Of a stretch of 64,000 bases of DNA, positions 2,503 through 35,727 are shown piece by piece; the stretch's first letter is position 1; every line of letters begins with the position of its first letter. Source of the DNA: Henckelia pumila (lineage: Eukaryota; Streptophyta; Magnoliopsida; Lamiales; Gesneriaceae); the NCBI RefSeq assembly GCF_033568475.1, contig NC_133122.1, positions 188,224,949 through 188,288,948 on the forward strand, read 5' to 3'. The translations under genes and the position numbers were made by a program. The notes below the pieces were generated by a model that saw only the letters and a program-made list of their open reading frames with translations, did no database searches and was not told the DNA's origin.

Positions 2503-3148
2503 GTCATGCCTGGTTCAAAAAAACAACATTTCAGAATGCTTCTGGTGCTATCAAAACTCATTTCAAACACTCCAAAGCAAGTATATAAACATGGATATAC
2601 ATTTGTAAACAAGCATACATGAGCCCATCTCATCAATTAAAACATGAAAGAACTATTCAATACAAAATCAAGTAATATCGGTTATAACATGTTTGACAAC
2701 CTCTAAAGACAACAACTTTATCTAAACCCAAGTCACCACATGCTACATCTCTTTCTCAAGCCACCCAAGTTCTCCCTGGCTAGCTTCTGCCCCACCTGTT
2801 TTCATGCACACATACAAAACAGGACAACAGCCAGATAACATCCGGTGAGAATATAATTCCCAGTATAATTGACATATAAAGTGTTAAATAAATCATATCA
2901 ACTCTAATCATAATCGACTCAACCATAGAGTAAATAATGCATATATCAATTTGAAACATATCAATCAAAACTTCAAATCGTACTTCAAATCAAAAGATTT
3001 ATATAGCGCTCTATCAAGAATTGATTCATATAATATCTTGGCCATCAAAATTCGTATCCGATCTTGACATGGATATCCATATATCGTAGTCCCATCAGAC
3101 TCGAAAATAAGTTTCATCAAACCTTGGCATTAGAATCAATTCAAACAT

Positions 3149-4944
3149 TGCTACAACTTAAATTGTAATTCACCCAAGTGTAGGTTGTCTGCAAGTAATA
3201 TACTCGTGAGTACGAGATCGATCCACGGAGAGGATGTTGTAAGTTTAATTTTAGCAATAATATATTATAGATGAAAATATTATTATAAAACTTCAAATAC
3301 ACAAATTATAAAATTGTCAAGGTTTTAAAGGTTCATTGTTGGTTTAATTAAGATTGCTAAATAAAAATAAATAAAAGAAACTAAAATAAAAATAAACATA
3401 AAAGAACAATGAAATATTTAAACAAGTATATCATATAATATAGTTCCCACTATATTAATATCAGATTAACCGATATTTAATACATGGTACCCATAATATA
3501 TATATAGATGAATAAATATAAACATAAAAAGAACAATTAAATATTTAAACAAGTATATCATATAATATAGTTCCCACTATATTAATATCCACCGATATTT
3601 AATACATGGTACCCATAATATATATATAAATGCATAAATATAAATTGACATAAAAGTAAATGTTAGATCAAATCACAATATTTTATTTAGAACAACCGGC
3701 AGAGCCACGCTATCGTCTAAATAAAATATATGACTTTATGTTAGATGCGATAAAGTAAATGTTAGTTGCGGAAAAGTAAAAGTTAGATGCGAGAAAGTAA
3801 ATGTTAGTTGCGGAAAAGTAAATGTTAGTTGCGATAAAGTAAAAGTTAGATGCGATAAATTAAATGTTAGTTCAAATCACAATATATTATTTAGAACAAC
3901 CGACAGTGTCACGCTATCGTCTAAATAATATATATGACTTTATTATAAATAGATACATATATTTATAGTATATAATTATTGTAGTAATTATTGTATCATA
4001 TTTGACAACAAATCAAGGTAACCACATTCAAGGTACCAAGCATTTGATGTAAATAGATAACAACAAATCATCCAAAATTATACCTACAAATAAAGATCAA
4101 TTAGTAAAAATAAAAATAGAAAAGAAAAGAATATACAAAATATAGACAATCTTACTTGACCAACAATGAAACCTTTTCACCTTGACATAAAAAGATTTAG
4201 CTTTTCATGAACATGAAACTCAAGAATAAAGATAAAAGAAATTTCATACTTGAACTTGAGAAACTTGCACACTCAAACTTTTATTCTCACACACACAATA
4301 TTTATTTTACAAATGAAGAATTCTCTACACTCTTGCACACTACAAAGCTTATACAACACATCTATTTATAGGCCAAATGAGAGGAAGAGTCCAAGGCTCA
4401 TTAAATGTGAAATAGTAAAGTTGGTGGGTGCTTGTCTCCTTGAATGTCAATACCATGACCCAACTTTAATTGGCATGTTTGATGCCTTAGACCACCGATT
4501 CAGCCTTTCTTTTCAACATAGAACACGTAGGATATTTTGTGTAGATGTGTTTGGACAACTCATTCACCCCTTTTGGATAAAATATGAAATACTTATGATA
4601 TTTTTACTCCAAGCTGGTCATAGTAAAAGTAAATCTATCTCCATTTTGATGTTTTATTATTTTGATCATCTTAATGAAGTTTTTGGAATTTCTTGTCTTC
4701 TACAAAGTTGAAGATGCCTCTTTTGTGATTCTACAGGTTTTGAGATTACTCCATTATGACCACTGTAGCTTGAGTAATTTTATTTTTACCAAACCTGCGC
4801 AAACCGTAAAATACAACATTTTAGTAAAACATTTAAATATAAACACATAACACTAAAATAATACAACTTCATAATTTTAATTAAACTTAAATTTTAAAAC
4901 ACACTTTTTAACATATAAATAATTACAAATTTTAAGTTTCATCA
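3149..4944 (-). repeat. 3' LTR of element E
   Basis: On plus it runs TGCTACAACTT...AAGTTTCATCA; on its own strand TGATGAAAC...GTAGCA, with the standard TG/CA ends. It matches 13293-15086 throughout the stretches compared. Plus-strand frames in it (for example 4250-4711) recur identically in the other LTR and are judged chance openings in a non-coding repeat. Confidence 0.93.
3480..3945. repeat. Tandem and duplicated sub-repeats inside LTR E
   Basis: From about 3740 to 3870 a short unit near 20 bases, built on TAAATGTTAGTTGCG and its variants, repeats about seven times. This array is bracketed by two copies of a roughly 70-base block containing CACGCTATCGTCTAAATA (about 3667-3735 and 3873-3942). 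A block with CATGGTACCCATAATATATA occurs near 3483 and again near 3604. The same arrangement recurs at about 13625-14090 in the other LTR. Such arrays are common in promoter regions of LTRs, but their role here is not shown. Confidence 0.85.
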
Positions 4945-4956
4945 CACCCCCAAACC
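4945..4956 (-). other. Polypurine tract of element E
   Basis: The minus strand reads GGTTTGGGGGTG directly before the 3' LTR start. A purine-rich run at this place primes plus-strand DNA synthesis in LTR elements. Confidence 0.75.
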
Positions 4957-6396
4957 GGCTAATTACTAGTCCCTTAGTAATAAAATATCATAAAATATCA
5001 TAAAATATCATAAAATCACAAGTTAGATTTTTATTCCTTAATATATATATTCAAATTTGCAAACTTTAAAATTTTAAAAACACACTTGTGAGGAGATCAT
5101 ATGTTTATTTATAAATCTCATTATCAACTAATATATTAATATATAATTGGATGGGGTATACATATATATTACACACAATATCAAAATATTAAATATATAT
5201 AATTTTTTTATATAAATATTTTCTAAAAACTTTGAGAATAATATAATTAAAATGATAATAGAAATCATTTCATAACATGTATAATATCAGGAATCTTAAT
5301 GTAAAAGTCTCAACTCCATATTCTCTCGGGTTAAAGTATTTCATATATAGCTGTTTTTCACTCGTGGAGTTGGAAGAAAATTATACACTCTTTGAAAATG
5401 GCTAGTAAAGCAGACAATCAAATAACCTAATATTGAAAATAAGATAGGATGATTTACAAAGAATAAACCCATTTTTTTTTTTTTTTGTTTTTTTTGTTTT
5501 TTTTGTTTTTTTTTTTTTTGCTTGGCTGCAAAATTGTTTTTACATAATCAAATACCTCCAATAAACTTTGAAAATGTAACATTTTTTTTTCAAAGTTTAT
5601 TTATTTTTTTATTTTTTATGAGGTAAATCTATTACATTAATAATTATAGTAGAGATATTAATACTCTACATCTTTACAATCAAACTTCAAACAACTTTGC
5701 AGCCAATTTTCATTTTTTTTTCTTTTTTTTTTTTCAAAATGGGTTTAATCTAGTAATCAACCATTTCTTAATAATCAATAAAAGCTTATAAGTTGTTTTC
5801 TCAATTCTTACCCCTCACTCACAAAATTTATGTGAGTAACTATTGCACTTTTACAAATTAATTCCCTCAATTATACATGTTATTATTTATTCAATCAATA
5901 TCACTTTAATTATATACTCATAAAAGTTTTAAAAAATATGTATTTGAAAACACACAATTATATATTATTTATAACTTATATCCCATCAATTATATATTTT
6001 TTATTAAATTGATAAAAAGAATAATAAATAAACATCTATACAAAAAGACTTCATTTTCTTAGTAGTTTGCAATTTAAATATATACGAAATATTAAAATCT
6101 AATCTATTGTGATAAAATGATAAATAAAAACTAATGCGTGTCAGGAGTTTTTGACTCCTTACTCTGCCATTGAAAAAGAAAAATAAATATTATTATAGAA
6201 ATATATATATATATTTTTTAAATTTTAAATTTTTTTTTTTTTTTTTTTTTTAGAGATAAACCCTCCCCCAAACCTGAATATGACATTGTTTTTAATTTTT
6301 TTTTTTAAGAAAAATAAAGAGTACATGATGAAAGAGATATCACCTGGAATTATTGAAGATGAGGAACAAACACAAACCATTTCATGACATGTTGAA
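4957..6396 (-). repeat. Non-coding 3' region of element E holding a large imperfect inverted repeat
   Basis: No gene is visible in this 1.4 kb stretch. Two arms, about 5020-5480 and 5735-6130, are imperfect reverse complements. Matching landmarks include the 10-mer AACCCATTTT (5460s) against its reverse complement near 5745, GGCTGCAAAATTG near 5523 against a close reverse complement near 5691, CATAACATGTATAAT near 5272 against its partner near 5870, and ATATAATTGGATGGGGTATA near 5142 against a similar block near 5980. The loop side is rich in T runs. As RNA this could fold into a hairpin several hundred bases long. I estimated similarity by eye only and give no percentage. Confidence 0.7.
6261..6274 (-). 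other. Second polypurine-like tract in element E
   Basis: The minus strand reads GGTTTGGGGGAGGG, sharing GGTTTGGGGG with the terminal tract at 4945-4956. It lies 120 bases past the LOG stop codon, between the coding genes and the inverted repeat. It could be a second priming site, or the remnant of a former 3' terminus from before the inverted repeat was gained. Both readings are inference. Confidence 0.5.
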
Positions 6397-7035
6397 TCAA
6401 TGATCCAGTTTTCTTTTCTTACTGGTTGGTTGAGACCAATTGATCTTTGTTATAGCTGAATCAGGTTGATGAACAAAAGCTTGGAGATCATCAATTAATT
6501 GGTCTTCATTCGAAGCAGAGATGAGCATCCTTCGTGAATTTTCTGAAATAAAATTTTGTTCCACGGCTACATCGAGAAAAGTCAACAAACCATCATAATA
6601 GTTATTGATATTCAACAAGCCAACAGGTTTATTATGGATATTAAGTTGTGCCCAAGAAACAACATGAAAAATTTCTTCTAGAGTACCAAAACCACCAGGT
6701 AAGGCAATAAAAGCATCAGAATTTTCTATCATTTTAGTTATTCTCTCGTACATTGATGAAACTTTCAACTCTTCCCCAACCGTAACACCTGTAATATTTC
6801 CTTCAGCTAAAGCTGTAGGAATAATACCCAAAACCTGACTACCTCCAAGATGAGCTGCTGTTGAAATAGATCCCATTAACCCAATATTGCCTCCTCCGTA
6901 AACCAAGTGAATTTTTCTCTCTGCTAAATTTTTTCCAAGATTAATTGCTGCATCAACAAATATTTCATTCTTTCCAGTATTAGAACCACAAAAGACACAA
7001 ATATTTTTCAATTTTTGTGAAGAAGATCCTGTCAT
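6397..7035 (-). CDS. LOG: LOG-family cytokinin riboside 5'-monophosphate phosphoribohydrolase carried inside element E
   Basis: The 212-residue product belongs to the LOG (lysine decarboxylase-like) family, which releases active cytokinin bases from their riboside monophosphates in the cytosol and nucleus. Visible motifs are the Rossmann start CVFCGS (residues 13-18), the glycine motif GGGNIGLMG (47-55), an arginine at 98 and PGGFGTLEE (113-121), whose final glutamate and the arginine are the catalytic pair of the family. The tail KINWS...KKRKLDH is like plant LOG proteins and looks nuclear-localising. Plant LOG genes normally have several introns; this copy has none, so it was probably captured through an mRNA. 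It lies on the same strand as gag-pol, 190 bases after the zinc-finger gene. Start chosen as the first ATG of the frame, a few residues ahead of the conserved domain. The frame is complete with no missing motif. Confidence 0.9.
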   Translation of the reverse strand: MTGSSSQKLKNICVFCGSNTGKNEIFVDAAINLGKNLAERKIHLVYGGGNIGLMGSISTAAHLGGSQVLGIIPTALAEGNITGVTVGEELKVSSMYERITKMIENSDAFIALPGGFGTLEEIFHVVSWAQLNIHNKPVGLLNINNYYDGLLTFLDVAVEQNFISENSRRMLISASNEDQLIDDLQAFVHQPDSAITKINWSQPTSKKRKLDH

Positions 7036-7225
7036 GTTTTTTTCTTTTCTTTTAAAAAATATAGAGAGAGTTGAGTGATTTTATAAGGAAAACAAGGAAT
7101 AAGACAGAAATAGGAATACAGATGTGAACAAAATGATAAAAATAGTAAAAAAAAATAATATATAATAATAACATGCATGCGTATAAACAGTGATGTGATT
7201 GTGGCTCACAGTGTTCCTTCAATAT

Positions 7226-7777
7226 TTATGAGTCGAGGGTTGGCTTACCATCCAATTTTCTTATAAATTGGCAAATAGGGTCTTTTTTAGTCAGATTCCC
7301 AAGACCATTACCATGACGCTGCGCTTGGAATAGTTTCCATAAACGGAGAAGTTGACCTTTTACATCTCCACTAGAATGCGTCTCAAGAGTCAATGAGATA
7401 TCATCCAATGACTCTTTACTCAGCCCATTCTTAATGAAATCAATTTTATCTTCTCTATTTGTGGAAACATATCCCAAAGATCTGCATTGTCTATTACAAG
7501 TCCATCTGGCACAATTATGACAAACATCTAACCTTTTAGCCCTTCTTTTCTTCGCATAGGTACTTTTTCCTAGTCCAGACATATTTCGAACAAGTAAGAA
7601 TTTTGGAACTTCACCACCTAATCGAACCTTGGCTTCAATTATAAGACGAATATCTTCCGGGATTCCTTTTTGCATAAGCATTCTCAATCTTTCACATCTG
7701 CCTTCATAAATCATTCTCAGAACTTTTTTAGAAATAGATGGAAAATATTTACCAAGTTTTTTGATAGCTTCATCCAT
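7226..7777 (-). CDS. Basic zinc-finger protein resembling carlavirus cysteine-rich nucleic-acid-binding proteins, carried inside element E
   Basis: A 183-residue frame between gag-pol (ends 7924) and the LOG gene. Seen directly: a hydrophobic N-terminal helix-like part, then GKSTYAKKRRAKR (residues 70-82), a strongly basic nuclear-signal-like run, followed at once by four cysteines C86, C89, C94 and C98 and then a segment ending DFIKNG (113-118). From memory, the order basic YA-x-RRRA run, cysteine cluster, short linker, DFI-x-x-G is the hallmark of the small cysteine-rich proteins of carlaviruses and relatives (Betaflexiviridae). Those bind nucleic acid and several suppress RNA silencing. 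The C-terminal 65 residues are longer than usual for that family and are not recognised. Suppressor activity is inference. An alternative is an unrelated retroelement nucleic-acid-binding protein that converged on the same pattern. Confidence 0.55.
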   Translation of the reverse strand: MDEAIKKLGKYFPSISKKVLRMIYEGRCERLRMLMQKGIPEDIRLIIEAKVRLGGEVPKFLLVRNMSGLGKSTYAKKRRAKRLDVCHNCARWTCNRQCRSLGYVSTNREDKIDFIKNGLSKESLDDISLTLETHSSGDVKGQLLRLWKLFQAQRHGNGLGNLTKKDPICQFIRKLDGKPTLDS

Positions 7778-7923
7778 AATATATATTTATATATATATAT
7801 ATTCAATTATTTTGGGAAATTGAAATAAAACCGACTGAAAGTAGTCACGGAGTACCGTTATCCACCACTTAACCGGGAAGTGAACTCAATTCTGCAAAAA
7901 TAAAATAAAAATATAAGTAACAA

Positions 7924-10900
7924 TTAAGTTGGATCATATAAAGGCATAAACTCTTCATTAAGAACTTCATTTTCTATAAACGGTTTAAGTCTTTGCCCAT
8001 TAACTTTAAATACATTATTATTTTTAGGATTTTCAACATCAACAGCACCATTAGGATAGACAAATTTAACAATAAATGGTCCAGACCATCGCGATCTAAG
8101 TTTTCCTGGAAACAAATGCAAGCGAGAATTATAAAGTAAAACTTTTTGTCCGATTTCAAAAGATTTTCTCATAATATTTTTATCATGAAATGCTTTTGTT
8201 TTATCTTTATAAATCTTTGCATTTTCATATGCATCATTTCTTAATTCTTCTAGTTCATTTAATTGCAATTTTCTTGATTTAGATGCATCATCTAAATTAG
8301 TATTAAACGCTTTAATTGCCCAATAAGCTTTATGTTCAATTTCAACAGGTAAATGACAATGCTTTCCAAAAACTAATCTGTATGGTGACATCCCCATTGA
8401 TGTTTTAAATGCAGTTCTATATGCCCATAATGCATCACTTAATCTTAAAGACCAATCTTTTCGATTTGGATTGACTGTTTTTTCCAAAATTTGTTTTATT
8501 TCTTTATTTGCAAGTTCAACCTGACCATTTGTTTGAGGGTGATATGGAGTAGAAACTTTATGTGTAATACCATATTTTCTTAACAACGAAGAAAATGATT
8601 TATTTATAAAATGACTTCCCCCATCACTTATTATAGCTCTAGGTATTCCAAATCGACTAAAAATATTTTCTTTCAAAAATTTTATCACAACTTTATGATC
8701 ATTAGTTCTACATGCAATTGCTTCAATCCATTTTGAAACATAATCGACAGCTACTAAAATATAAGTGAATCCAAAAGATAATGGAAATGGACCCATAAAA
8801 TCTATTCCCCAACTGTCAAATATTTCAATAATCATGATTGGATTTAAAGGCATCATGTTTCGTTTTGAAATTGAACCCATTTTCTGACAATTTTCACAAG
8901 ATTTGCAAAATGAATGTGTATCTTTGAATAAAGAAGGCCAATAAAATCCACATTGAAATATTTTTGCAGCTGTTTTCTTTGACGAAAAATGACCTCCACA
9001 TGCCTCAGAATGACAAAATTTAATGACACTACTTACCTCATTGTCGGGTATGCAACGTCGAAAAATTTGATCAGGACAATACTTAAACAAATAAGGATCA
9101 TCCCAATAAAATTTTTTGACCTCTTTCAAGAATTTATTTTTATCTTGTGAACTCCAATGAGAAGGAATTTTATTTGTCACAAGAAAATTTACAATATTAG
9201 CAAACCAAGGCATAGTAGTAGCATAAAATAGTTGATCATCCGGAAAATTTTCATTTATTGGTATTTCATTTTGAGATGATTTAGAAATTATTCTTGATAA
9301 ATGATCGGCTACTACATTTTCTTTTCCTTTTTTATCTTTTATTACAAGATCAAATTCTTGTAACAACAAAATCCATCTTATTAATCTCGGCTTAGCATCT
9401 TGTTTATTTGATAAATATTTTATGGCAGAATGATCAGTGTAAACAATAGTAGTAGAACCAATTAAATAGGATCGAAATTTATCTAATGCAAACACTACTG
9501 AAAGTAATTCTTTTTCAGTTGTTGAATAATTGATTTGAGCACTATTTAAGGTTCTACTTGCATAATAGATCACATAAGGTTTACCTTCTTTTCTTTGTTC
9601 TAACACGGCTCCTACAGCATAATCACTTGCATCACACATTAATTCAAATGGTAAAGACCAATCAGGAGGTTGTAAAATAGGTGATGTAGTTAAAAGATTA
9701 ATTATTTTTTTAAAAGCAGTTTCACATTCTTGAGTCCATTCAAATTGTGCATCTTTTGTTAAAAGATTTGAAATTGGTTTCGATATTATGCTAAAATTTT
9801 TTATAAATCTTCTATAAAATCCCGCATGACCCAAAAATGATCGAATTTCTTTGATCGTGTTTGGTGATGGTAGATTAGCAATAACATCAACCTTAGCTTT
9901 ATCAACTTCAATTCCTTTTTCAGATATGACATGCCCTAACACAATTCCGGATTTAACCATGTAGTGACATTTTTCCCAATTTAAAACAAGATTTTTTTCT
10001 TCACATCTTTTTAAAACTTCTTCCAAATTTTTAAGACAGTTTTCAAATGAGTTTCCAAAAACAGTTATATCATCCATAAAAACTTCCACAAATTCTTCAA
10101 TCATGTCACTAAAAATACTTAGCATGCATCTTTGAAAAGTAGCCGGGGCATTACATAAACCAAATGGCATTCTTTTAAAAGCAAAAGTTCCGAACGGACA
10201 AGTGAAAGTAGTTTTTTCTTGATCTTCTAATGATATTGGTATTTGATAATACCCCGAATACCCATCAAGAAAACAATAATAAGGATTACCTGCCACTTTC
10301 TCTAAAATTTGATCTAAAAATGGTAACGGAAAGTGATCTTTTCTAGTTGCATCATTTAATTTTCTATAATCAATGCACATACGCCAACTAGATGGAATCC
10401 TAGCTTGTAATAATTCTCCCTTTTCATTTTTTATAACAGTGATGCCTGATTTTTTTGGTACTACTTGTGTTGGACTTACCCATTTACTATCCGAGATTGG
10501 ATAAATAATTCCGGCATCTAATAGTTTTAAAACTTCATTTTTAACAACTTCTTTCATGTGTGGATTTAATCTTCTTTGTGGTTGTTGATATGTTTTAGCA
10601 TTTTCTTCCAAGTGAATTCTATGTGTGCAGATTAAAGGATTTATACCTTTTATATCTTGCAAAGTCCATCCAATTGCATTTTTGTGTTTTTTAAGTAGTG
10701 TTATTACATCTTCTTCTTGTTTTGGTAAGAGGGTAGAAGATATTACAATAGGATATGTTTGATTTTCACCAAGAAAAGCATATTTTAGTTCTATTGGCAA
10801 GGGTTTTAATTCAAGTTTTGGATGATCATTTTCTTTTACTTCTTCAAGTTCATTAATTTCTTCAAATAACTTTGATTTAAAAACATTTTTTGAATCAAAA

Positions 10901-13212
10901 CTTTCCACTAAACAAACTTCAGATTGTTGATTTAAGTTTTCTTGGTGTATATTTTCTTCCACAATTGTTTCTATTGCATTATCATCTTCATCTTCATTAA
11001 TACTTGGTTGTTTACATAAATTGAACACATTAAGTTCTAAAGTCATATTTCCAAAAGACAATTTCATTATTCCATTTCGACAATTAATTAGAGCATTTGA
11101 AGTTGCTAGAAATGGACGTCCCAATATTACTGGAATTTCGTTATGTACTTCTATTGGTTGTGTATCCAAGACAATAAAATCCACAGGATATATGAATTTA
11201 TCGACTTGAACTAACACATCTTCTACGATACCTCTAGGTATTTTGATTGACCTATCGGCTAGTAAAAGAGTAACAGATGTAGGTTTTAAATCTCCCAACT
11301 TAAGCTTTTCATAAACTGAATAAGGAATTAAATTCACACTTGCTCCCAAATCTAACAAAGCTTTTTTAATTTTATTTTTTCCAATAATACATGAAATTGT
11401 TGGACAACCGGGATCTTTATATTTCAAGGTAGAATTATTTTGAATAATAGAGCTTACTTGCTCCGTTAAGAATGCTTTCTTCTTTACATGCAATTGTCTT
11501 TTCACAGTACATAAATCTTTTAAAAACTTTGCATAAGAAGGCACTTGTTTAATAGCATCTAATAATGGAATATTTATTTTTACTTGTTTAAAAACTTCAT
11601 AAATATCAGAATCATTTTTTTGTTTTTTATTATTTACTAATGCATGAGGAAAAGGAACATGTTTATTTATTTTATCATCAATTTTCTTATTTTTAGGACT
11701 CAAAGCATCATCTTTCTCAAAAGTATCAGGATTTGAATCCTTACTCTTTGAGTTTAATTGATCTTTGTTTTCATCACTATATGGATCATTAACTATTTTA
11801 CCACTTCTAAGAGTAATAACAGATTTTACTTGATCAAATTTTTCTTGATTTTGATTTTTAGGATTAGGTTGTGGTTGAGATGGAAATTTTCCTTTTTCAT
11901 GAATATTAAGTGCAGATGCAAATTTTGCAAGAGTTTCTTTCAAATCATTCATAGATTGAATGTTTTGAATATTGATAGACTCTTGCTTTTGAATGTATGC
12001 ATGAATTTCATCTTCAAAATTTTTTCTTGGAGGTGGAATATAAGGAGCATAACCTTGATGACTTTGGTTATTTTGAAAAGGTTGTTGTGAAGGTTGTGCA
12101 TTATTATCGTTCCTCCAACTAAAATTGGGATGATTTCTCCAACCAGGATTGTATGTTTGTGAAAAAGGATCTAACGTTGGTTTTTTAAAATTGTTAACAT
12201 AATTGGCTTGTTCATGGAGACATTCTTTAAATGAAGGCAAAGTAGGACAATTTTTTGTAAGATGATCATGTGTGTCACATATATGACAAACAATTTCTTG
12301 AACACTTTTTAATTGATCACTCTTTTTCATTTCTAATGACTCGATTTTTCTTGCTAAAGATGCAAGTTTAGCTTGAACATCTACATCATCTTTAAGATGA
12401 TAAATACCACCCCCATTTGTTGAATTATTGGTTTTACTTGGTGGTTCAATTGAGCCTATATTATCCCAATTTTGAGCATTTTCTGCTAATGACTCCAAAT
12501 ATTCCATAGCTTCATTTGGGTTTTTATCTTCAAAAGTTCCATTACACATGAATTCTATCATTTGCCTATCTTTAGGTATTAAACCTTCATAAAAGTGAGA
12601 AACTATTCTCCATATTTCAAAACCATGATGTGGACATGTATTAAGTAACTCTTTATATCTATCCCAACATTGATAAAATGTTTCCCCTTGTTTTTGAGAA
12701 AAAGTTGTAATTTGTCTTTTAAAAGAGTTTGTTCTATGGGAAGGAAAAAACTTTTTTAGAAATTGTTGTTGCATTTCTTCCCATGATCTTATTGAACTTG
12801 ATCTCAAATTTTGCAACCATGTTTTAGCTTTATCTTTTAAGGAAAAAGGGAAAAGCTTTAATCGAACAGTATCCATGCTACAATTTTGATCATTATAAGT
12901 GTTGCAAACCTCCTCAAATTCTCTTAAATGCAAATATGGATTTTCAGAATCTAAGCCATGAAAATTTGGTAAAAGTTGAATGACTTGTGGCTTAAAATTG
13001 AAATTAGATGCATCAGAAGGAAAAACTAAACAAGATGGTGTACTAGTTCTTATTGGATTCATATGGTGCCTAAGTGTTCTTGGTTGTTCATGTTCTTGAT
13101 GATTATTATTATTATTATTATCATCTTGATTATTAGAATTATCGTCCATGTTTAAAATATTTTCAGTTACTCGAACAAGTCTACCACTTTGTTTACGACT
13201 CCAAACAATCAT
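7924..13212 (-). CDS. Gag-pol polyprotein of element E (Athila lineage)
   Basis: One open frame of 1762 codons. In order (residue positions rough): an asparagine-rich N-terminus, a retrotransposon gag domain (about 80-250), a CCHC-like knuckle [14 protein letters not shown] (about 310-325), an aspartic protease with DLGAS (about 640), reverse transcriptase with FMDD (about 1050), RNase H with CDASDYAVG (about 1190), an integrase HHCC zinc domain (about 1400-1440) and an integrase core with GIDFMGP, SDGG and NGQVE (about 1460-1570). The gag type and protease motif are those of Athila. The first ATG sits about 60 bases after the primer site; a second ATG at 13148, opening MDDNSNN, is an equally good start. 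The frame looks whole, consistent with the young LTRs. Confidence 0.93.
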
Positions 13213-13269
13213 ACAATTAAAAACAACATACTATTTACATAATAACAAAATTAAACTTAATTTATACCT

Positions 13270-13286
13270 CCCCGGCAACGGCGCCA
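13270..13286 (-). other. Primer binding site of element E (tRNA-Asp type)
   Basis: The minus strand reads TGGCGCCGTTGCCGGGG, complementary to the 3' end of plant tRNA-Asp, the primer typical of Athila elements. It lies six bases inside the 5' LTR. Confidence 0.88.
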
Positions 13287-13292
13287 AAAACT

Positions 13293-15086
13293 TGCTACAA
13301 CTTAAATTGTAATTCACCCAAGTGTAGGTTGTCTGCAAGTAATATACTCGTGAGTACGAGATCGATCCACGGAGAGGATGTTGTAAGTTTAATTTTAGCA
13401 ATAATATATTATAGATGAAAATATTATTATAAAACTTCAAATACACAAATTATAAAATTGTCAAGGTTTTAAAGGTTCATTGTTGGTTTAATTAAGATTG
13501 CTAAATAAAAATAAATAAAAGAAACTAAAATAAAAATAAACATAAAAGAACAATGAAATATTTAAACAAGTATATCATATAATATAGTTCCCACTATATT
13601 AATATCAGATTAACCGATATTTAATACATGGTACCCATAATATATATATAGATGAATAAATATAAACATAAAAAGAACAATTAAATATTTAAACAAGTAT
13701 ATCATATAATATAGTTCCCACTATATTAATATCCACCGATATTTAATACATGGTACCCATAATATATATAAATGCATAAATATAAATTGACATAAAAGTA
13801 AATGTTAGATCAAATCACAATATTTTATTTAGAACAACCGGCAGAGCCACGCTATCGTCTAAATAAAATATATGACTTTATGTTAGATGCGATAAAGTAA
13901 ATGTTAGTTGCGGAAAAGTAAAAGTTAGATGCGAGAAAGTAAATGTTAGTTGCGGAAAAGTAAATGTTAGTTGCGATAAAGTAAAAGTTAGATGCGATAA
14001 ATTAAATGTTAGTTCAAATCACAATATATTATTTAGAACAACCGACAGTGTCACGCTATCGTCTAAATAATATATATGACTTTATTATAAATAGATACAT
14101 ATATTTATAGTATATAATTATTGTAGTAATTATTGTATCATATTTGACAACAAATCAAGGTAACCACATTCAAGGTACCAAGCATTTGATGTAAATAGAT
14201 AACAACAAATCATCCAAAATTATACCTACAAATAAAGATCAATTAGTAAAAATAAAAATAGAAAAGAAAAGAATATACAAAATATAGACAATCTTACTTG
14301 ACCAACAATGAAACCTTTTCACCTTGACATAAAAAGATTTAGCTTTTCATGAACATGAAACTCAAGAATAAAGATAAAAGAAATTTCATACTTGAACTTG
14401 AGAAACTTGCACACTCAAACTTTTATTCTCACACACACAATATTTATTTTACAAATGAAGAATTCTCTACACTCTTGCACACTACAAAGCTTATACAACA
14501 CATCTATTTATAGGCCAAATGAGAGGAAGAGTCCAAGGCTCATTAAATGTGAAATAGTAAAGTTGGTGGGTGCTTGTCTCCTTGAATGTCAATACCATGA
14601 CCCAACTTTAATTGGCATGTTTGATGCCTTAGACCACCGATTCAGCCTTTCTTTTCAACATAGAACACGTAGGATATTTTGTGTAGATGTGTTTGGACAA
14701 CTCATTCACCCCTTTTGGATAAAATATGAAATACTTATGATATTTTTACTCCAAGCTGGTCATAGTAAAAGTAAATCTATCTCCATTTTGATGTTTTATT
14801 ATTTTGATCATCTTAATGAAGTTTTTGGAATTTCTTGTCTTCTACAAAGTTGAAGATGCCTCTTTTGTGATTCTACAGGTTTTGAGATTACTCCATTATG
14901 ACCACTGTAGCTTGAGTAATTTTATTTTTACCAAACCTGCGCAAACCGTAAAATACAACATTTTAGTAAAACATTTAAATATAAACACATAACACTAAAA
15001 TAATACAACTTCATAATTTTAATTAAACTTAAATTTTAAAACACACTTTTTAACATATAAATAATTACAAATTTTAAGTTTCATCA
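13293..15086 (-). repeat. 5' LTR of element E
   Basis: This matches the 3' LTR at 3149-4944, with one fewer TA unit near 13765. It carries the promoter for the element on the minus strand; I could not fix a TATA box with certainty in the AT-rich sequence. Confidence 0.93.
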
Positions 15087-16843
15087 AACATCATATCATA
15101 TCAAAATCGAAATCAAAGATCCACTACCTGCGATGGATCGACAATAACATCATCAAGTTCTAACTCAAGAACAAATAATAGTCAAGTATATGATTTAGCG
15201 GGACAACTCAAGAAGCATCATTCTTGAGTTTCAAATCCCTGACTCTCGATATCGTCTTATACCTGTCAATCTCGATTCTTGAGGTGCTCCAAATCTGGAC
15301 ACTACCATAAGAATAAATATCAAAATTCCGCTCAAGACTCAACTAAATCTTCAAGGCACAATTAGTTGCAATATTGATCCCGATTCGAAGTCTAGAATCC
15401 CGAGCTCGATATCCTTTCATTCAAATATGAATTCATATCAATATAGCTAAGAAACATCAACAAGGATTCATATCGTTTTCAACTCAATCATAAAACTCGA
15501 AATTGAATCCATTCTTGAACCGGTACTCAAAACTCTATTATAACAATCCTTCAATATTCTTAAATTCAAATCCACTATATATCAGCAGATCTAACATCAT
15601 ATAGTCAACATAATCAAATGTTCAGAAGTCTAACATATGCTGAACATTCACAACAATCTTACTCGACATAATCTACTAATTGTTCAAATCGTAATTCAAC
15701 TTCAACATTCAAATCAATCCATTCGAACTCGAACTTGCCGCTTCGGATTCAATATCATTCATTTCAAATCTGAAATGAAATGATATAATATCAAATATCA
15801 TCTTCATTCTCATTTCAATCTCATCAAAGTGTAAACAATCTCAAATCTTGATCAATCAATCAAAATTCAAACCACCAGCGTAATGATTCGAAACCGGTAA
15901 TTCCAAAGACCTCACATCATTATTTCTAGCATCTAAAACCTATATCATCATCAATTCATCATCAACAATTCAAAATTAAGCAGCAAGAAATTTCAGAATT
16001 CTCGAAAATCTTGCAAAAATTATAAACATTTCCAAACGACGATCTTTTCTCAATTCGACTTAAATATGCTATCGTCGTATATACTAGAACACGTTTATAC
16101 AATCAAAACTGAATTCGAGCAATATCATAAAAATATAAACATCGTAGAACTTTGTAATACTTACGTCAAAACGTAGCACTCGAAGCCGTGATCGCAAATA
16201 TACGATCAATTTTGAATTCTACCGGGCGGATCGATTTTAATCGGCTTTGGAATTAACCAAAAATGGTTTGGAAGCTTTCTTCCTCTTCCTCTCTCGATCC
16301 TTCTGCTGGGAATTGGAGAAGATACATATAATTCCCACATATACACATTTATGCCCACTTGCCAAAGAAATTTGCACTTCGGTCCCTGAAACTTCTTCCA
16401 AACTTCAATTCAGTCCTTGGAAATTCTTTTAATTCAATTTCAATCCAAAATAATTTAAGAATATTATAATTTATATCTAAACTCTACAAATTCTCAAATT
16501 AAATATTCGCGGATTAGAATAAGTAAACTGCACTTTAGCCCTCGGAACTGCGATATTTGCAAATCAGTCCCTGTGCGAGTTTATCTTCAAAGTAAATCCT
16601 TTAATTCTCGGAACTTGGAATTTAATTTTTAAATTCCATAAATATTTAATTCCATTATCTTCATATTTTAATTTAAGAATACCGGAATTTAAATATCAAA
16701 ATCCTTAAATTCTCAAATTAAATATTTTCGGCTTGGAAATTAAATTTCTAATTTCCATAACTTCCTCAAATACTATTTTCCCAAAATACAGAATTTAAAT
16801 CTAAAATTCCATAATTAATAACTTAATATTTCAGAGCCTTACA

Positions 16844-20699: not shown

Positions 20700-21177
20700 C
20701 CCCACTAGGAAAAACCTTTGCATAATGTTCTGGTTGGCCACAAGTACGACAAACTCCCTGAACTCCTATGCACTGATCGGATGGATGCCTTCCTCCACAC
20801 CTATTGCAAGACTCTCTACGACCCCATGAAGATCCCCCACCATGAGAACTACCAGAACTAGAGGAACTGCTAAATGACTTTTCCTGAATTGCTTTCTGTA
20901 AGGCTTAAATCTTTGCGGCCTAGGTTGCTGAAATGACTGTTGGGGTGCAACAGATGAGTTTGCTAAAAATTGTGCAGTTTCAGTGGGTGCTTGCATTGTA
21001 TACTGTGGTCGACCCCTTCTTAACCCTGCTTCATGCCTTATGGCTTTGTCAACCGCATCAGCATAATCGACTGGGTTGCAAGCCAAGACCAAGGAGTACA
21101 GATTCTGATTCAATCCTTCCATAAACTTTTCGAGTTTAGCTCCATCTTTGGCAGCAATGTGCGGCACATAAGTAAAC
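20700..21177 (-). pseudogene. C-terminal gag of element A with CCHC knuckle
   Basis: The stretch after the insertion of element B contains the end of the gag domain (FMEGLNQNLYSLV) and, near 20720-20760, a zinc knuckle of the form CRTCGQPEHYA. The opposite side of the same gag lies at 35728-36500. Broken. Confidence 0.75.
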
Positions 21178-22147
21178 TGATGTGAATTCTTAATGTATGG
21201 AAGGCAAACACGACTATATTAAAATCGTATCCTCAATCCAATAACAAAAGAAATCAAGAAATTGCACAATCTTTAAAACAAGTAAAGGTTTTGGATTATT
21301 CACCTTTAGTTTACTTGAAACTAGCAACAAACAATCACGAATAAAAATAATTGATCACAACGGGACCTTCAGAAAACCTGTTTCTGACAACCCACGAGGA
21401 TAATCAATCGACAAATGCCACAAAGTATGAACTTTGATAAGTTTGATTTTTGAACAAAGCACAAAGCTTCAATAAAAATTCTAGAGAGAATTTTATGTAT
21501 AAAAATCTGAAATCTTAAATTGTATTCAATAATGAATGTTTGTTGTATTTATAATACAACTACAAAAAATAATAAAAGATATCGCAAAATATATCTAAAG
21601 ATATAATAATATCTCCTAAAAGTTTTCTAGTAGGAATAAAAGACTCAAAATATGAAAATAATGCCAAAAAATATCAAAAAGTCTCGCACACACACAAAAC
21701 GCTGAACCGTGTGAGAGAGTGCAGGCGCGGGCGCGGGCGCACATAAGACTCTGTCTGGAAATCTTGAAAACACTCAGAACAGGCGCGGGCACGCGGCAGA
21801 CAGGCGCGGGCGCGTACAAGGTTCTGTCTGGAAATCTTCATAATTGCAAGGACGCGCGGGCGCGCGTGAAACAAGGCGCGGGCGCGCATGCGTCTCGGAC
21901 TAGGTGACTTATTTTTGAGTTCTCTTTGACATTTTCTCCACTTTCTTGACGTCTTTGGACTTCAATAATATTGTAACATCCCTCAAAGTGATCTTCAAGA
22001 ATTCCAATGCCATCTTGACAATTCATCTTCAACGATTGAAGCGCATCTTTGAATCTCTTAGCTCGACCTCTTGTAATTGGTCCTCTTAGCATCTCCAACG
22101 GATCCTTAACCACGTGATCAACATGCGAGCTATCCATGATCGCATCA
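21178..22147 (-). repeat. 3' LTR of element B
   Basis: 970 bp, paired with 34800-35722. It holds a GC-rich array of GCGCGGGCGCG-like units at 21720-21895 that is shorter in the partner LTR. The last coding frame of the element runs into this LTR. Confidence 0.88.
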
Positions 22148-23013
22148 TCCTCCCCTTCTTGAAAAGGATTTGACCTCAAATCTCGTTCATCAGCTACATC
22201 AAACAACTACAAGTCAGAAACATTAAAAGTAGTACTTACATTATAATCACCTGGAAAGTCTAATTTGTAGGCGTTGTCATTGATCCGCTCCAATATTTGA
22301 AAAGGTCCATCGCCTCTAGGGAACAACTTAGAAAGCCGCTTCTCCGAAAAACATTCCTTCCTCAAATGCAACCACACCCAATCACCTGGTTCAAATACAA
22401 CCTTTTTTTTTACCTTTATTTTCTTGCTTTGTGTATTGCAAGTTCTTTTTTTCAATATTCGCCTTAACCTTTGCATGAAAATTTCACACAAACTCCGCCT
22501 TTTTCTTACCATCCATGTTAACCCTTTCACTCATAGGCAAAGACATTAAATCCAACGGGGTTAAAGGATTAAAACCATACACAATTTCAAATGGTGAAAA
22601 ATTTGTAGTAGAATGCACACTACGATTATATGCAAACTCAAAAAATGGTAAACATTCATCCCAAATCTTAAATTTCTTTTTAATTATAGTACGCAATAAA
22701 GTTCCTAACGTCCTATTAACAACCTCAGTTTGACCATCCGTTTGGGGATGACATGTAGTCGAAAACAGTAATTTAGTACCAAGTTTGCACCATAATGTTT
22801 TCCAAAAGTAGCTCAAGAACCGAGTATCTCTATCAGACACGATTCCTAGACATGTCATGCAATCTTACAATCTCATTAAAGAATAGATCCGCAACATGAG
22901 AAGCATCATCAGATTTATGACAAGCAATAAAATGAGCCATTTTTGAAAATCTATCAACCACCACAAACACTGAATCCCTCCCCTTCTTAGACCTTGGTAG
23001 TCCTAAAACAAAA
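21838..23013 (-). pseudogene. Integrase core and C-terminus of element B, extending into its 3' LTR
   Basis: The integrase core (SDRDTRF, then [13 protein letters not shown]) lies between 22484 and 23013. It is followed by a C-terminal region with FEPGDWVWLHLRKE and GDGPFQILERINDNAY. The final frame (21838-22206) crosses the LTR boundary at 22147. CRM elements are known for a C-terminal part partly encoded by the 3' LTR. The integrase is separated by element D from its zinc domain at 30594-30809. Broken. Confidence 0.7.
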
Positions 23014-24505
23014 TGTAGTGACCCTGCATGGAATAACCTACTAACTGGCAACTAATAGCATGCATTAAACTTAATACATCAAAAGACTTAACAGAGTAAA
23101 ATGTGCGGAAACATAATCCATAAATTACATATCAGCTTAGTAAAATATATCCAGGCTTAATACTGTAGTGATACAACCATATCGAAAAACTTAAAAGTAA
23201 ATATTATACAGCTATATCGAATCCTGCTATATAATAAACTCCTCAAGGCTCCTGCTCCCTAGTCCTGCCTTGAACTACCAGCTCCGTCCATCCTGCGACC
23301 TACCTCGTGGAATAGGGTGTCCAAGATAACAACTAGGACGTGAGCGCTAACGCCCAGTACATAAACATGAGTAAACATATGTATAAAGTGCATGCAACAT
23401 GATGGCTGGTAAAGGGTCATCTGAAAAGTCATGCTCAATACCGGCGCCACATGAGTGCTGCCACCGCACGGATCAACCTCTGGGTGCAACCACACTCGTC
23501 AAGTACATCAGAGTAGTCAGACATAAATGTCCTCGCCATCGCGGTACTCTCAGTGACAGATATCGAGTATAGAGATGAGCAGCTCTATAATCAGATATAT
23601 CAAGGTATAGGCTCAACGTGTATATGCACATAACATATGAATATAGAAAGCGGTAAATCATATATCATGCCATATAATAATGTCAAATAAATGCAACATA
23701 TAAACATGTATACTCGCTGGCAATCTCAGTCAATGTGTACGTACCTCTAGGCTAGTTCAAGTATAGTAGATCCTAGGTTCCAAGCCTATATTCAAAAGTT
23801 CACCGTATCACTACATAAGTTCTATAAGCCTTAACTAAGCTAATAAGTACTCCCAAAACTTAAATAGATTCCCGGACCATACCTTCGTCCGTAGATAGCC
23901 CTTTGAAGTTGCTAGCCCCGGATGACTATAACCACTCCTTGGGTATTCCAGAACCTCTATTATAACCGATAGGGCCCTCAAGTGTATAACTCGTACTATA
24001 TAACTGAAGAATAAAACTCGAGAATTCTTATTCAAATTATGACTCCGAAGAGCCCTATTTATAGACAAAAATCCGTCGGAGTTCGGGCCCTCCGAACTGG
24101 AGTTCGGATCGTTCGATCCAACTCACTGCCTGCATGCGAGACACGTCGAGTTCGGACCGTCCGATCACCACTTCGGGTCGTCCGAAGTGTCCTAAATTTG
24201 ACACTTGTCAAAAACCATGGCTGAGTAATCCTGCCTACTTGGCACAGGTGAAGTTCGGGACGTCCGATCCTACTTTGGATCGTCCTAACTTGCCTTACCT
24301 CTGAAGTCAACAAGCTCACCTTCGGACCCCTCGGTGTGCTGAGTTCGGGCCGTCCAAAGTCCTCTTTGGACTGTCCGAACTGGCTCAGAAAATGAAAATC
24401 CAATTCTTGATTCTGAAGTCCGATTAATCCCCGAAATTGATTAATTACCAACTCTTAATCATGTTTAACATATTATTATCTTAAAATGGAATCTGGGTTA
24501 CTACA
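23014..24505 (-). repeat. 3' LTR of element D
   Basis: Paired with 29106-30598. On the minus strand a TATAAATA box at 24064-24057 follows an array of TTCGGACxGTCCGAA-type dyads spanning 24390-24070. Confidence 0.9.
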
Positions 24506-24520
24506 TTCTCCCCACCTTTA
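24506..24520 (-). other. Polypurine tract of element D
   Basis: The minus strand reads TAAAGGTGGGGAGAA directly before the 3' LTR, the standard plus-strand priming site. Confidence 0.8.
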
Positions 24521-24544
24521 GATATTTCATCCGCGAAATAAAAT

Positions 24545-27428
24545 CTAAAGACAAATCAACATAACAATATGAAACATCAAACCATGTTTTATGAAAACAA
24601 CTGTAATTACATCTTTACATGGTAATAAAAAATACACAGCAAATAACTCAGGATATTCTGCTCGCATATGGCTCTCGGTTTCCCAAGTTGCTTCTTCAAC
24701 GCCTCGGCGCTGCCACTGTACCATCACAAGTGGTATAGTCTTGTTCCGAAGAACTTTATCCTTCCTGTCTAGGATACAGAGTGATCGTTCAACATACGAC
24801 AGATCTGGCTTTATACTAGAAAGAGATGGCGGTAACGCCAAACGATAAGCAACATCTCCAATCTTCTCCAGTATCTGAAAAGACCCAATAAAACAAGGTG
24901 ACAACTTGCCTTTCACACCAAATCTCATCACCTTTCTGAAAGGTGATACTCGTAGGAACACATATTCACAAGGCTCAAACTGCAATGGTCTGCGATGAAT
25001 ATTAGCATAACTGGCTTGTCTATCTTGAGCAGCTTTGATCCTCTGCTTGATCAAATCTACCTTATCTATAATCTGCTGCACCAACTCAGGACCCTCGACT
25101 TGTCGTTCTCTTCATCCCAGAATAACGGAGTACGACACCGTCGACCATACAATGCCTCGAAAGGTGCCATATCAATACTACGATGATAACTGTTATTGTA
25201 GGCAAATTCAATCAAAGGTAACTGATCTTGCCAAGACAAACCAAAATCCATGATAGAAGAACGTAGCATATCCTTCAGCGTACGAATTATCCGCTCTGAC
25301 TGCCCATCAGTCTCCGGATGATATGCAGTGCTCAAACTCAGAGTGGTACCCAAAGCCTGCTGAAAGCTATCCCAAAAACGTGAGGTAAATCGCGGGTCTC
25401 TATCACTAACTATACTCACTGAAATCCCATGTAATCGCACTATCTCCTGGACATATAAGCGTGTCATGCAATCATAAGAATACTCCCGGTTGTAAGGAAT
25501 AAAGTGTGCTGATTTCGTCAAACGGTCAACAATGACCCAGATAGCATCACACTGACGTGAAGTCATAGACAAGTGGGTGACAAAATCCATAGTCACGTGC
25601 TCCCACTTCCATTCGGGAATCTCAAGATTTTGCAGTAATCCACCTGGTCGTCAGTGTTCAGCCTTGACCTGTTGACAAACCAAACATCTCGAAACAAATT
25701 GATACACACTCCTATTCATCCCTTTCCACCAGAATCTGGTTCGCAAGTCCTTATACATTTTCATGCTTCCAGGATGAACAGACAATCGACTCCTGTGAGC
25801 TTGAGATAGAATATCATTCCTGAGCTCCGTAACATCAGGTACAACCACTCGATTCGATAAGCACAATAAACCATCTGCCTGAAAATGGAATCCAGATGTA
25901 TTACCCCCATTGGCTAGACGTGCCAAACGCTGAGTCTTAACATCAGATATCTGAGCATCTCTGATCCGAGAATACAATGCTGGCTCAGATAATATAGTAT
26001 ACAAAAAAATTCCATTTCTTCCTTTCTTGTGCTTGATTGTAAAACTCAATGAACATCACTCCTGAACCATATGAGATATTTCACTAGTCTAAAGTGCAGA
26101 AAGTCTCACCTGCCGACTCAAGACATCAGCAGTAAGATTAGCGGAACCTGGTTGATATTTGATTTCACAATCATAATCCTTCAAAAGATCCATCCAACGT
26201 CTCTGTCGCATATTCAACTCCGCCTGAGTGAATAAAAACTTCAAACTTTTGTGATCCGTAAATATCTCAAATTTCTCGCCAAAAAGATAATTCCTCCAGA
26301 TCTTGAGTGCAAATACAATGGCGGCTAACTCGAGATCATGCACTGGATAATTATTCTCATGCGTCTTCAACTGTCGAGAAGCATACGCAATAACATGTCC
26401 ATGCTGTATAAGAACGCATCCTAACCCCTGACCAAAGGCATCAGTATTGACAACATAACCTCCTGATCCAGAAGGTAGAGCTAGCACAGGTGCAGTAGTA
26501 AGATGTCTACGCAGCTCGTGAAATGACTCCTCACAATCCGAGGACCATATGAAGGCAACATCTTTTCATGTAAGCTGTGTCAAAGGCATGGCCAACTGTG
26601 AAAAATTCTCGATGAACCGATGGTAATAACCCGCTAGACCCAAGAAACTACGAATCTCAGCAACCGTCGTCGGACGAGACCAGTTCAGCACTGCCTCTAT
26701 CTTACTTGGATCAACAGATATTCCTTCACTAGAAATTACATGATCGAGAAACACTACCCGATCAAGCTAGAATTCACACTTGCTCAATTTGGCATACAGT
26801 TGCTTATCTCGTAACGTCTGTAAAACAATTCAGATGCTGTGCATACTCATCCTTGTCATGAGAATAGACAAGAATATCATCAATGAAGACGATGACAAAT
26901 CTATCCAGATATTCTCGAAATACCTGATTCATCAGATTCATAAAGACTGTCGGTGCATTCGTCAAACCGAATGACATCACCAGAAATTCATAAAGCCCGT
27001 ATCTGGTCCTGAAAGCAGTCGTAGAAATATCTGAGTCTCGTACCCGCATCTGGTGGTATCTAGATCTCAGATCTATCTTCGAGTAAACAGAAGTACCCTA
27101 TAATTGATCGAATAGATCATCAATCCACGGCAAAGGATACTTATTCTTGATGGTGACACGATTCAACTGCCTGTAGTCAATACATAATCGCATCGATCCA
27201 TCCTTCTTCTTGACAAATAAAACAGGTGCCCCACGGAGAAATACTCGGACGAATATATCCCTTATCAAGCAGATCATGCAACTGCTGTTTCAATTCCCTC
27301 ATCTCTGACGGTGCCAGACGATAAGGGGCTCGGGATATAGGCATAGTTCCTGGTACTAGATCAATACCAAATTCAACCTTTCGAACCGGAGAAAAACCAG
27401 GAATCTCATCAGGGAATACATCAGGAAA
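24545..27428 (-). pseudogene. Pol region of element D: RT, RNase H, integrase and chromodomain, broken
   Basis: In order on the minus strand: reverse transcriptase (about 27300-26560, with FIDDILVYS), RNase H (about 26490-26090, with [12 protein letters not shown] and TDHKSLKF), the integrase HHCC zinc domain (about 25850-25650), the integrase core (25596-25066, with DFVTHL, SDRDPRF and HPETDGQSER), and a C-terminal chromodomain (PLVMVQWQRRG...ATWETE, about 24800-24640). Chromodomains direct chromovirus integration to marked chromatin. This order defines a chromovirus. Broken. Confidence 0.85.
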
Positions 27429-28995: not shown

Positions 28996-29087
28996 ATCCT
29001 GAAAAGAATTGCACATTAAAATCCCAAATGTGCAAAAATTACTCAAGACTAAACTAAATCCCAAGTACTAATTTCCAAAATCTATGC

Positions 29088-29101
29088 ATGCTCTGATACC
29101 A
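29088..29101 (-). other. Primer binding site of element D (tRNA-Met type)
   Basis: The minus strand reads TGGTATCAGAGCAT, four bases inside the 5' LTR. Confidence 0.88.
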
Positions 29102-29105
29102 AAAA

Positions 29106-32302: not shown

Positions 32303-32314
32303 AGGAGGTAATCC

Positions 32315-34202: not shown

Positions 34203-34799
34203 TGTACTTGCAGAAAACGTTAGTAATAAAATTCCTCACTCAAAATCTCACAAGTCACTCCAAAGTAATTCACTTAATCACTCACTTTTTTTTCACTCAA
34301 AATTTGTGTAAAAGGCTTTTTGCTTTGTGTAAGAGTGAATCAAACTTTCAAGTTCATAACTTGTAAACACTTGAAGATTGACTCTCGAAGATTGACAAAA
34401 ACAAGAAGAAGAAAGTTATGGAATTGAATTTTTGACTTGCACCCAAGGATGTACAAGAACAAAGTAATTGACCACAAGTTATCTTGCTTCTTCAATATAA
34501 TTTTTTTTTTGAGGCTTTTTCGGTCCTTCACTATTTGTTTTTCTTTTTGACCGATTTTTCACTATATATATTTTTTTTTGACTTTTTCGATTTTTCGATT
34601 TTTTTTTGACTTTTTTCGAGATAACTTGTAGCACAAGACACGAAAACTTGGGCGACAAGATTGACACAGAAACGACTTAGAACTTTGAAATAGAATAGAC
34701 TCAGATGAAGAACGAAAGATGAAGAATGAAGAACACGAAGAACATATAGAGATGAAGATAGATACTTACTTGATTCAAAACCTTGGCTTTGATACCAAA
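34203..34799 (-). other. Leader of element B with variant tRNA-Met primer site at 34785-34797
   Basis: Between gag and the 5' LTR lies about 600 bases with no gene and long T runs on plus (34501-34620). The primer site on minus reads TGGTATCAAAGCC, one base off the usual TGGTATCAGAGC. Confidence 0.7.
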
Positions 34800-35722: not shown

Positions 35723-35727
35723 TAAAC

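Follow-up and report, generated by a model that had tools for sequence, protein, structure and literature searches.

A LOG-derived gene with an altered pocket and a virus-type NABP gene between pol and the 3' LTR of an Athila-type retrotransposon

Introduction

A LOG-family extra domain reportedly features in a 2011 abstract by Steinbauerova in which two Athila-like elements are named. In Citrus and Populus, a YgdH (LOG-family) domain has been described in consensus sequences of LTR retrotransposons, and these Ty3/gypsy elements resemble the one analysed here in carrying a LOG-family extra domain; the passages of the report that concern them give the domain only, with no NABP (nucleic-acid-binding protein) partner, pocket change, tail or clade (PMC9289625). 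Ty3/gypsy elements of orchids with an m6A demethylase domain are a further case of an enzyme domain acquired by gypsy elements, although the enzyme and the plant group are different (PMC9289625).

Since the gypsy LOG domain has been published, we reject LOG capture as new in itself (PMC9289625). The original prediction knew of no other such pairing of the two genes; a search of the main text of open-access journal papers found no published NABP partner of a retrotransposon LOG, and a term look-up in the accessible text of PMC11728184, PMC11963269 and PMC6317226 returned neither LOG nor NABP. The apparent novelty lies in the fate of the LOG, now a protein with a changed pocket and a tail, in a group of its own.

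Results

A whole element of Athila type

The window (the whole 64,000-nt stretch of Henckelia pumila DNA analysed here) contains a minus-strand LTR retrotransposon at 3149..15086, borders that the original prediction had given exactly. Its 5' LTR (13293..15086, minus strand) and 3' LTR (3149..4944, minus strand) align with 99.78% identity over 1805 columns, with one mismatch and three gap positions. Both LTRs have TG...CA termini, and both flanks carry the 5-bp target duplication ATGTT (element strand; 15087..15091 on the 5' side, 3144..3148 on the 3' side), whose edges were read by eye. An 18-nt primer-binding site (13269..13286, minus strand), which we take to be of the tRNA-Asp type, starts 6 nt beyond the 5' LTR, and a purine-rich candidate polypurine tract, picked out by eye, adjoins the 3' LTR (4945..4956, minus strand). 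In Diaspora and Calypso, the primer site lies 5 bp past the LTR (PMC1142308).

The gag-pol gene is a single open frame of 1762 aa (7924..13212, minus strand) in which the gag, RT, RNase H and integrase matches exceed the Pfam cut-offs and the protease match falls slightly under its own (22.5 vs 24.3 bits). Neither an aRH domain nor a chromodomain was found among its Pfam matches up to E 0.1, which fits Athila, an extra aRH domain being described as a mark of the Tat lineage (PMC6317226). None of the three large ORFs gave a Pfam match to the Athila ORF-1 domain PF03078, which is reported in 16% of Athila elements (PMC6317226) and is not required for membership. Judged by primer site and domain content, the element is of Athila type. 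The LTR identity, the duplication and the open gag-pol frame bear out the prediction of a whole element with practically identical LTRs, and the element is apparently young, recently inserted and complete.

A virus-type NABP gene downstream of pol

Pol is followed, ahead of the 3' LTR, by two sense ORFs of 183 and 212 aa, where two extra intact genes had been predicted. The first (7226..7777, minus strand; 183 aa) encodes a basic cluster and a Cys4 motif and matches Viral_NABP (1.1e-5) and Carla_C4 (3.1e-5), each above Pfam's cut-offs, in agreement with its description as a carlavirus-CRP-like zinc-finger protein. The profile match recurs in 40 of 43 relatives, and neither it nor the LOG match described below is due to chance. 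The cysteine spacing, C-x2-C-x4-C-x3-C in 108 of 121 cases, differs from the carlavirus pattern, given for potato virus H as C-X2-C-X9-C-X4-C (PMC3689765). The structure model of the protein is weak (pLDDT 70, pTM 0.33), and a fold search with it gave no significant match (best viral E 0.063; one PDB match, E 9.2). Among the 42 matches listed for this weak model, 26 are flexivirus proteins by name, the taxa behind those names being presumed. A search of PDB sequences with the NABP profile reached a best E of only 0.27.

The sole match in the genome_contigs collection is a plant stretch within a bacterial MAG (L069), in which NABP is also located after pol. The dN/dS between the two plants' NABP genes is 0.34 (NG86), 0.10 (YN00) or 0.20 (ML), and NABP is under purifying selection between them. 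No LOG was found in L069 within the 983 nt downstream of NABP; a LOG search of the whole record also came back empty, a negative that by the search tool's own warning carries no weight. Comparison of the non-coding DNA after NABP in L069 with the window gave nothing clear (local scores 41 and 46; highest shuffled scores 37 and 47, respectively).

The NABP ORF is placed downstream of a splice-acceptor-like site, a T-rich tract ending in GCAG (7892..7912, minus strand) that has a similar counterpart in L069, and of a conserved non-coding island (7802..7879, minus strand) in which 68 of 78 alignment columns are identical to L069. Indels of 1 and 2 nt, together with an early stop in the window, all read by eye, argue against reading the island as a coding exon. 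The island includes a candidate hairpin of 7 bp (7802..7824, minus strand) whose 9-nt loop is unchanged in L069; since the folding energy of the island is no better than that of shuffled sequences (z -0.56 and -0.43), its support consists of one compensated pair, judged by eye. Rfam, searched up to E 1, returned a single match, snoR120 (E 0.47; 26 bits vs a gathering score of 55), which we took as chance.

A LOG-derived gene with a changed pocket and tail

The second ORF (6397..7035, minus strand; 212 aa) matches Lysine_decarbox (PF03641, the Pfam name for the LOG family) at 5.3e-39, and its closest relative of solved structure is At2g37210 (4.5e-64). Its structure model (pLDDT 88) has the LOG fold (TM 0.78/0.95 vs 2a33). 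The catalytic Arg and Glu and the PGGxGTxxE motif are present. The published prenyl pocket of AtLOG3, OsLOG and CpLOG comprises Met, His, Lys, Glu and Trp; the window copy keeps Met and Trp and has Y96, I99 and H124. Its basic tail, KKRKLDH, is the basic part alone of a tail that in many relatives continues into LxLxL.

We compared 121 retro-type LOGs with 120 host LOGs (LOG1/3-like proteins plus At5g11950); outside the element's own genome the label retro-type is an inferred one, because those proteins came without DNA. Catalytic residues are widely retained in the retro-type set, with R98 in 115 and E121 in 118 of 121 (both in 112) and PGGxGTxxE in 110; in the element's own genome, R98 is found in 56 and E121 in 55 of 59 copies. 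Pocket residue K99, in contrast, is present in 7/121 retro-type vs 120/120 host LOGs, and E124 in the same 7/121 vs 120/120, so that 114 retro-type proteins lack both; the pocket His varies (54/121). An EAR-like LxLxL stands at the exact C-terminus of 98/121 retro-type proteins vs 0/120 host proteins, usually preceded by a basic cluster; a basic cluster lies within the last 20 residues of 107/121 vs 1/120. In a tree of a subset, 33 retro-type rows form one clade (100/98) and 25 host rows another (99/95), in an analysis for which the tree tool warned that long branches meet. These data suggest that a number of plant proteins annotated as LOG are of the retrotransposon type with an altered pocket.

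NABP and LOG each have relatives in several dicots, and relatives at about 55-70% protein identity retain length, motifs and catalytic residues. Elsewhere, the two genes are linked by matching contig size above 1.5 kb in only two cases (0.22 expected); two further NABP/LOG matches, at 905 b, are too small to contain both genes. No relatives were found in the viral_contigs collection (queries P0002, P0001, A1 and a 20-mer), among phages (tblastn) or among plasmids (blastn).

The pair is a stable cargo

Other copies carrying both genes had been called for as a check, and a LOG match adjoins NABP in 59 of 60 sampled same-genome copies, spanning at least 211 of the 212 residues in 51 of the 59; a one-off passenger is thereby rejected. 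Among the best 150 copies scored for each gene, lists that favour good copies, 126 NABP and 138 LOG sequences are free of internal stops. For alleles found in at least 5 copies (8 in LOG, 10 in NABP), the N/S-like ratio is 0.17 for LOG, 0.27 for NABP and 0.25 for the pol part, vs 0.96, 0.77 and 1.32 for singletons (p = 0.026 for LOG, 0.0003 for pol and 0.007 for LOG and NABP pooled). On purifying selection across copies, a check that the original prediction had called for, common alleles show fewer amino-acid changes than singletons, with a weak result for NABP taken alone (p = 0.11). Alleles in 2-4 copies have ratios of 0.63 and 0.54, with 1.27 for pol, and counting alleles in at least 2 copies leaves all three genes short of significance (p = 0.065, 0.12 and 0.074).

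Discussion

We propose, with a probability of roughly 0.58, that an old Athila-type lineage carries, in the interval from pol to the 3' LTR, an accessory module of two genes that is selected for the element's own spread. NABP would probably be translated from spliced RNA and, by analogy with flexivirus cysteine-rich proteins, may act on nucleic acid in the nucleus, where it could dampen silencing or re-tune transcription in the element's favour. For the predicted dampening of silencing, the evidence is homology to flexivirus NABPs, several of which are silencing suppressors. The LOG-derived protein may be a nucleotide phosphoribohydrolase that works in the nucleus on an altered range of substrates; in much of the lineage, the window copy excepted, an LxLxL tail might in addition bind the co-repressor TOPLESS. 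A fuller scenario is tentative: a host hormone enzyme would have become a nuclear effector, its catalytic core kept and its base pocket reshaped to take a different nucleotide (possibly one with a part in silencing or immunity), with a terminal NLS-plus-EAR tail recruiting TOPLESS, in the manner of pathogen effectors, in most of the lineage, and would be paired within one element with a virus-type silencing suppressor.

Under the original prediction, NABP would hold down host silencing and LOG would increase active cytokinin in dividing cells, allowing new copies to reach the germ line. The retained LOG fold and catalytic residues, and the apparent homology of NABP to silencing suppressors, speak for this model, and the assignment to the LOG family holds; "cytokinin-activating" is a family label here. 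The cytokinin reading is weakened because the catalytic residues are kept but the pocket Lys and Glu are not, the pocket His is variable and the basic tail is foreign to all but one host LOG. With pocket and tail changed, the protein may be something other than a standard hormone activator, and plain cytokinin activation is doubtful; the model as a whole strikes us as rather unlikely. The pocket change need not end cytokinin use, since LOGs with identical critical residues are reported to differ in activity (PMC11593424).

It is improbable that the LOG-derived protein is mainly a nuclear adaptor or decoy in which enzyme activity has little weight: the terminal LxLxL of most retro-type proteins and the effector HaRxL21, which binds TOPLESS via a C-terminal EAR motif (PMC7446885), favour such a role, but an adaptor has no need of the R98 and E121 that nearly all of these proteins retain together, and the window copy lacks LxLxL, yet each of the two residues persists in nearly all of its own genome's copies. 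That the genes are useless passengers of a single transduction, amplified by chance, agrees with the many near-identical copies, the neutral-looking singleton changes and the missing LOG near NABP in L069, but is very improbable given the conserved distant relatives, an NABP dN/dS below 0.35 between two plants and the contrast between common and singleton alleles.

If the module reading is true, a plant transposon uses pathogen-type tools from within the genome (a silencing-suppressor-like protein, a hormone-enzyme derivative and an EAR tail), and the LOG-derived gene offers a testable case of an enzyme whose substrate shifted once a mobile element had captured it.

The element shares its primer-site type and a sense ORF after pol with Calypso, Athila4 and Bagy-2 (PMC1142308, PMC7264820); those elements have env-like ORFs, whereas the one described here has NABP and LOG instead, with no Athila ORF-1 domain found. 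Its NABP resembles the flexivirus cysteine-rich/nucleic-acid-binding proteins (PF05515, PF01623) in its Pfam scores and in the order of basic cluster and Cys4 motif, but is retrotransposon-borne and has another cysteine spacing. Likewise, the LOG-derived protein has the fold, PGGxGTxxE motif and catalytic Arg and Glu of plant LOG phosphoribohydrolases (LOG1/3/8 type), but differs from them in the loss of the pocket Lys and Glu, in its basic and often LxLxL-ending tail, and in being encoded by one exon within a retrotransposon.

A young LTR retrotransposon with two accessory genes

The LTR retrotransposon occupies 3149-15086 on the minus strand (11,938 bp), coordinates that the original prediction had placed exactly to the base. 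A single substitution and three gap positions separate its ~1.8 kb LTRs over 1805 alignment columns, its ends are TG/CA, and a 5-bp duplication flanks both sides. A single LTR substitution presumably corresponds, at usual plant rates, to some tens of thousands of years. An 18-nt primer site, of a type that we take to be tRNA-Asp, lies 6 bases beyond the 5' LTR, and each LTR contains a 63-nt repeat with 127-bp spacing (3400-3589 and 13544-13733). Gag-pol is a single open frame of 1762 aa with Pfam matches to gag, RT, RNase H and integrase and a protease match slightly under the cut-off; neither a second RNase H nor a chromodomain is among its Pfam matches. Because this domain content agrees with criteria described in PMC6317226, the element would fit Athila rather than Tat or the chromoviruses.

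Two extra genes lie in sense orientation between pol and the 3' LTR, NABP (183 aa) first and the LONELY GUY homologue LOG (212 aa, one exon) second. NABP exceeds the Pfam cut-offs for both Viral_NABP and Carla_C4. The prediction of a whole, young element carrying LOG and CRP-like genes was right, as the LTRs, target site duplication and Pfam matches agree.

Elsewhere in the window, region 21175-35723 consists of LTR elements nested in one another, whose gypsy-type domains lie in short frames; repeat pairs spaced by ~13.6 kb (21175-22148 and 34797-35723) surround others spaced by ~6.1 kb (23010-29953). A 237-bp tandem duplication at 35962-36435 lies within a gag-like frame, and the opposite strand likewise has a long open frame.

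The gene pair recurs and shows signs of selection

The 885-Mb assembly holding the window (133 contigs) gave 506 NABP and 464 LOG initial candidates. For each gene the top 150 were scored (identity of at least 95%), and 60 copies, picked by NABP, were fetched from the 150 NABP candidates. A LOG match adjoins NABP in 59 of these 60, contradicting the idea of a one-off passenger that the prediction had allowed for, and spans at least 211 of 212 residues in 51. The N/S-like ratios for LOG, NABP and part of pol were 0.17, 0.27 and 0.25 for alleles in at least five copies, 0.63, 0.54 and 1.27 for those in two to four, and 0.96, 0.77 and 1.32 for singletons. Compared with singletons, alleles in at least five copies gave p values of 0.026, 0.11 and 0.0003, respectively (0.007 for LOG and NABP pooled), and those in at least two copies gave 0.065, 0.12 and 0.074. 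The selection signal among these alleles is real, though based on few alleles.

NABP has 226 database relatives, 120 of them listed, and hosts among the listed matches include Populus, Xanthoceras, Acer, Orobanche and Rhamnella. For LOG, the 120 relatives listed include 26 clusters from Reevesia, 8 from Diplodiscus and a single Pterospermum cluster of 327 sequences, counts that fit transposon-borne genes. One Xanthoceras protein (P0124) has two PGGxGTxxE motifs. Because the relatives elsewhere are known as proteins without DNA, we infer rather than observe that they reside in elements. Contigs of 4511 b and 2128 b share length and source between the NABP and LOG lists (0.22 expected by chance, counting contigs above 1.5 kb); the two other matches, at 905 b, could not accommodate both genes. 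In L069, a plant-derived stretch of ~3.3 kb (DAIEQH010000041.1, 3330 b), NABP follows pol, and LOG is absent from the final 983 nt. This record is binned as Candidatus Nomurabacteria yet is plant retrotransposon DNA, a contamination of a public MAG. Between the window and L069, dN/dS for NABP was 0.34, 0.10 and 0.20 by three methods, which points to purifying selection between plants.

Expression of the accessory genes

Between pol and NABP, both the window and L069 have a T-rich tract ending in GCAG, followed by a conserved non-coding island (7802-7879) with 68 of 78 columns identical (87%); identity at third codon positions is 57% over the portion of pol that was compared. The island's local alignment score was 103, against at most 30 across 300 shuffles, and an exact 20-mer from it occurs in 57 of 60 copies in the same genome. 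At its 3' end lies a hairpin of 7 bp, in which the 9-nt loop is unchanged and one pair is compensated; the total folding energy of the island is not unusual. One end of the island resembles portions of the primer-site complement, perhaps by chance. NABP is likely made from spliced RNA; splicing is mentioned for the env-like gene of Bagy2 (PMC7264820). A search for an acceptor-like site upstream of LOG found none, so LOG may be expressed from NABP's RNA or from its own start.

An altered LOG and its viral-type partner

Seven residues, the catalytic Arg and Glu plus the prenyl-pocket Met, His, Lys, Glu and Trp, are described as identical in AtLOG3, OsLOG and CpLOG (PMC4979012). All seven are kept in each of the 120 host LOGs listed in a search with At2g37210, the protein on which the LOG model (pLDDT 88, good apart from a disordered tail) superposes. 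Among 121 retro-type LOGs (the window's and 120 listed relatives), the catalytic Arg is kept in 115 and Glu in 118, and the pocket Met in 109, His in 54, Lys in 7, Glu in 7 and Trp in 120. The pocket Lys and Glu are coupled (both kept in 7, neither in 114), Lys being replaced by Met, Ile or Leu; in 110 of the 114, Gln or His stands in place of Glu. His, Lys and Glu are kept in five solved LOG chains, of which two are Arabidopsis proteins, two the Pseudomonas enzyme and one YvdD. A plain cytokinin model for LOG seems unlikely, and the reading we favor is of a nuclear enzyme with a shifted substrate whose partner is a nucleic-acid-binding protein of viral type. The altered pocket does not prove a changed substrate, since LOGs with equal critical residues are reported to differ in activity (PMC11593424).

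An exact C-terminal LxLxL, the published EAR consensus (PMC6283911, PMC9956375), ends 98 of 121 retro-type and 0 of 120 listed host LOGs, and a basic cluster lies within the last 20 residues of 107 and 1, respectively. The effector HaRxL21 binds TOPLESS via a C-terminal EAR motif (PMC7446885). In 25 rows picked for LxLxL, the six preceding residues have a mean conservation of 0.67 versus 0.39 for the linker. The window's LOG and its nearest relatives are without LxLxL; SKKRKLDH occurs in 58 of 59 aligned copies from the same genome. In a tree of 37 of the 121 retro-type rows and a narrow sample of 25 host rows, for which the tool flagged long branches, 33 retro-type rows form one clade (100/98), host rows separate (99/95), and four rows with a host-type pocket and basic tail adjoin the retro-type clade (98/90), a topology that would fit a single capture followed by the tail and then the pocket change. 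P0188, P0212, P0213 and P0221, relatives adjoining that clade with a host-type pocket and a KKRRLA-type basic tail, are possible intermediates.

Both viral families are matched by 40 of 43 NABP relatives (E ≤0.01), and 107 and 108 of 121 sequences (the window's and 120 listed) contain a K[K/R]RRA cluster and a C-x2-C-x4-C-x3-C motif, respectively. The NABP model is of modest quality (pLDDT 70, pTM 0.33) and gave no significant fold match. Of 42 viral matches listed (best E 0.063, none significant), 26 bear the names of silencing suppressors or nucleic-acid-binding proteins from flexiviruses; the single PDB match had an E of 9.2. Viral proteins of this kind can suppress silencing, and one carlavirus protein is also described as a transcription factor causing hyperplasia (PMC12172455). 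The joint role that the prediction gave to the two genes is an inference.

Comparison with known elements

The description of LOG-domain elements in Citrus and Populus reportedly goes back to a 2011 source. The pairing had been predicted to be new, which holds in part: LTR elements of those genera have already been described in print as carrying a LOG domain (PMC9289625), and in the open literature searched neither the NABP partner nor the pocket change nor the tail turned up. The Cys motif of NABP is spaced more tightly than that of a carlavirus protein (PMC3689765). In primer type, the element resembles Diaspora and Calypso, in which the site is described as lying 5 bases beyond the LTR rather than 6 (PMC1142308).
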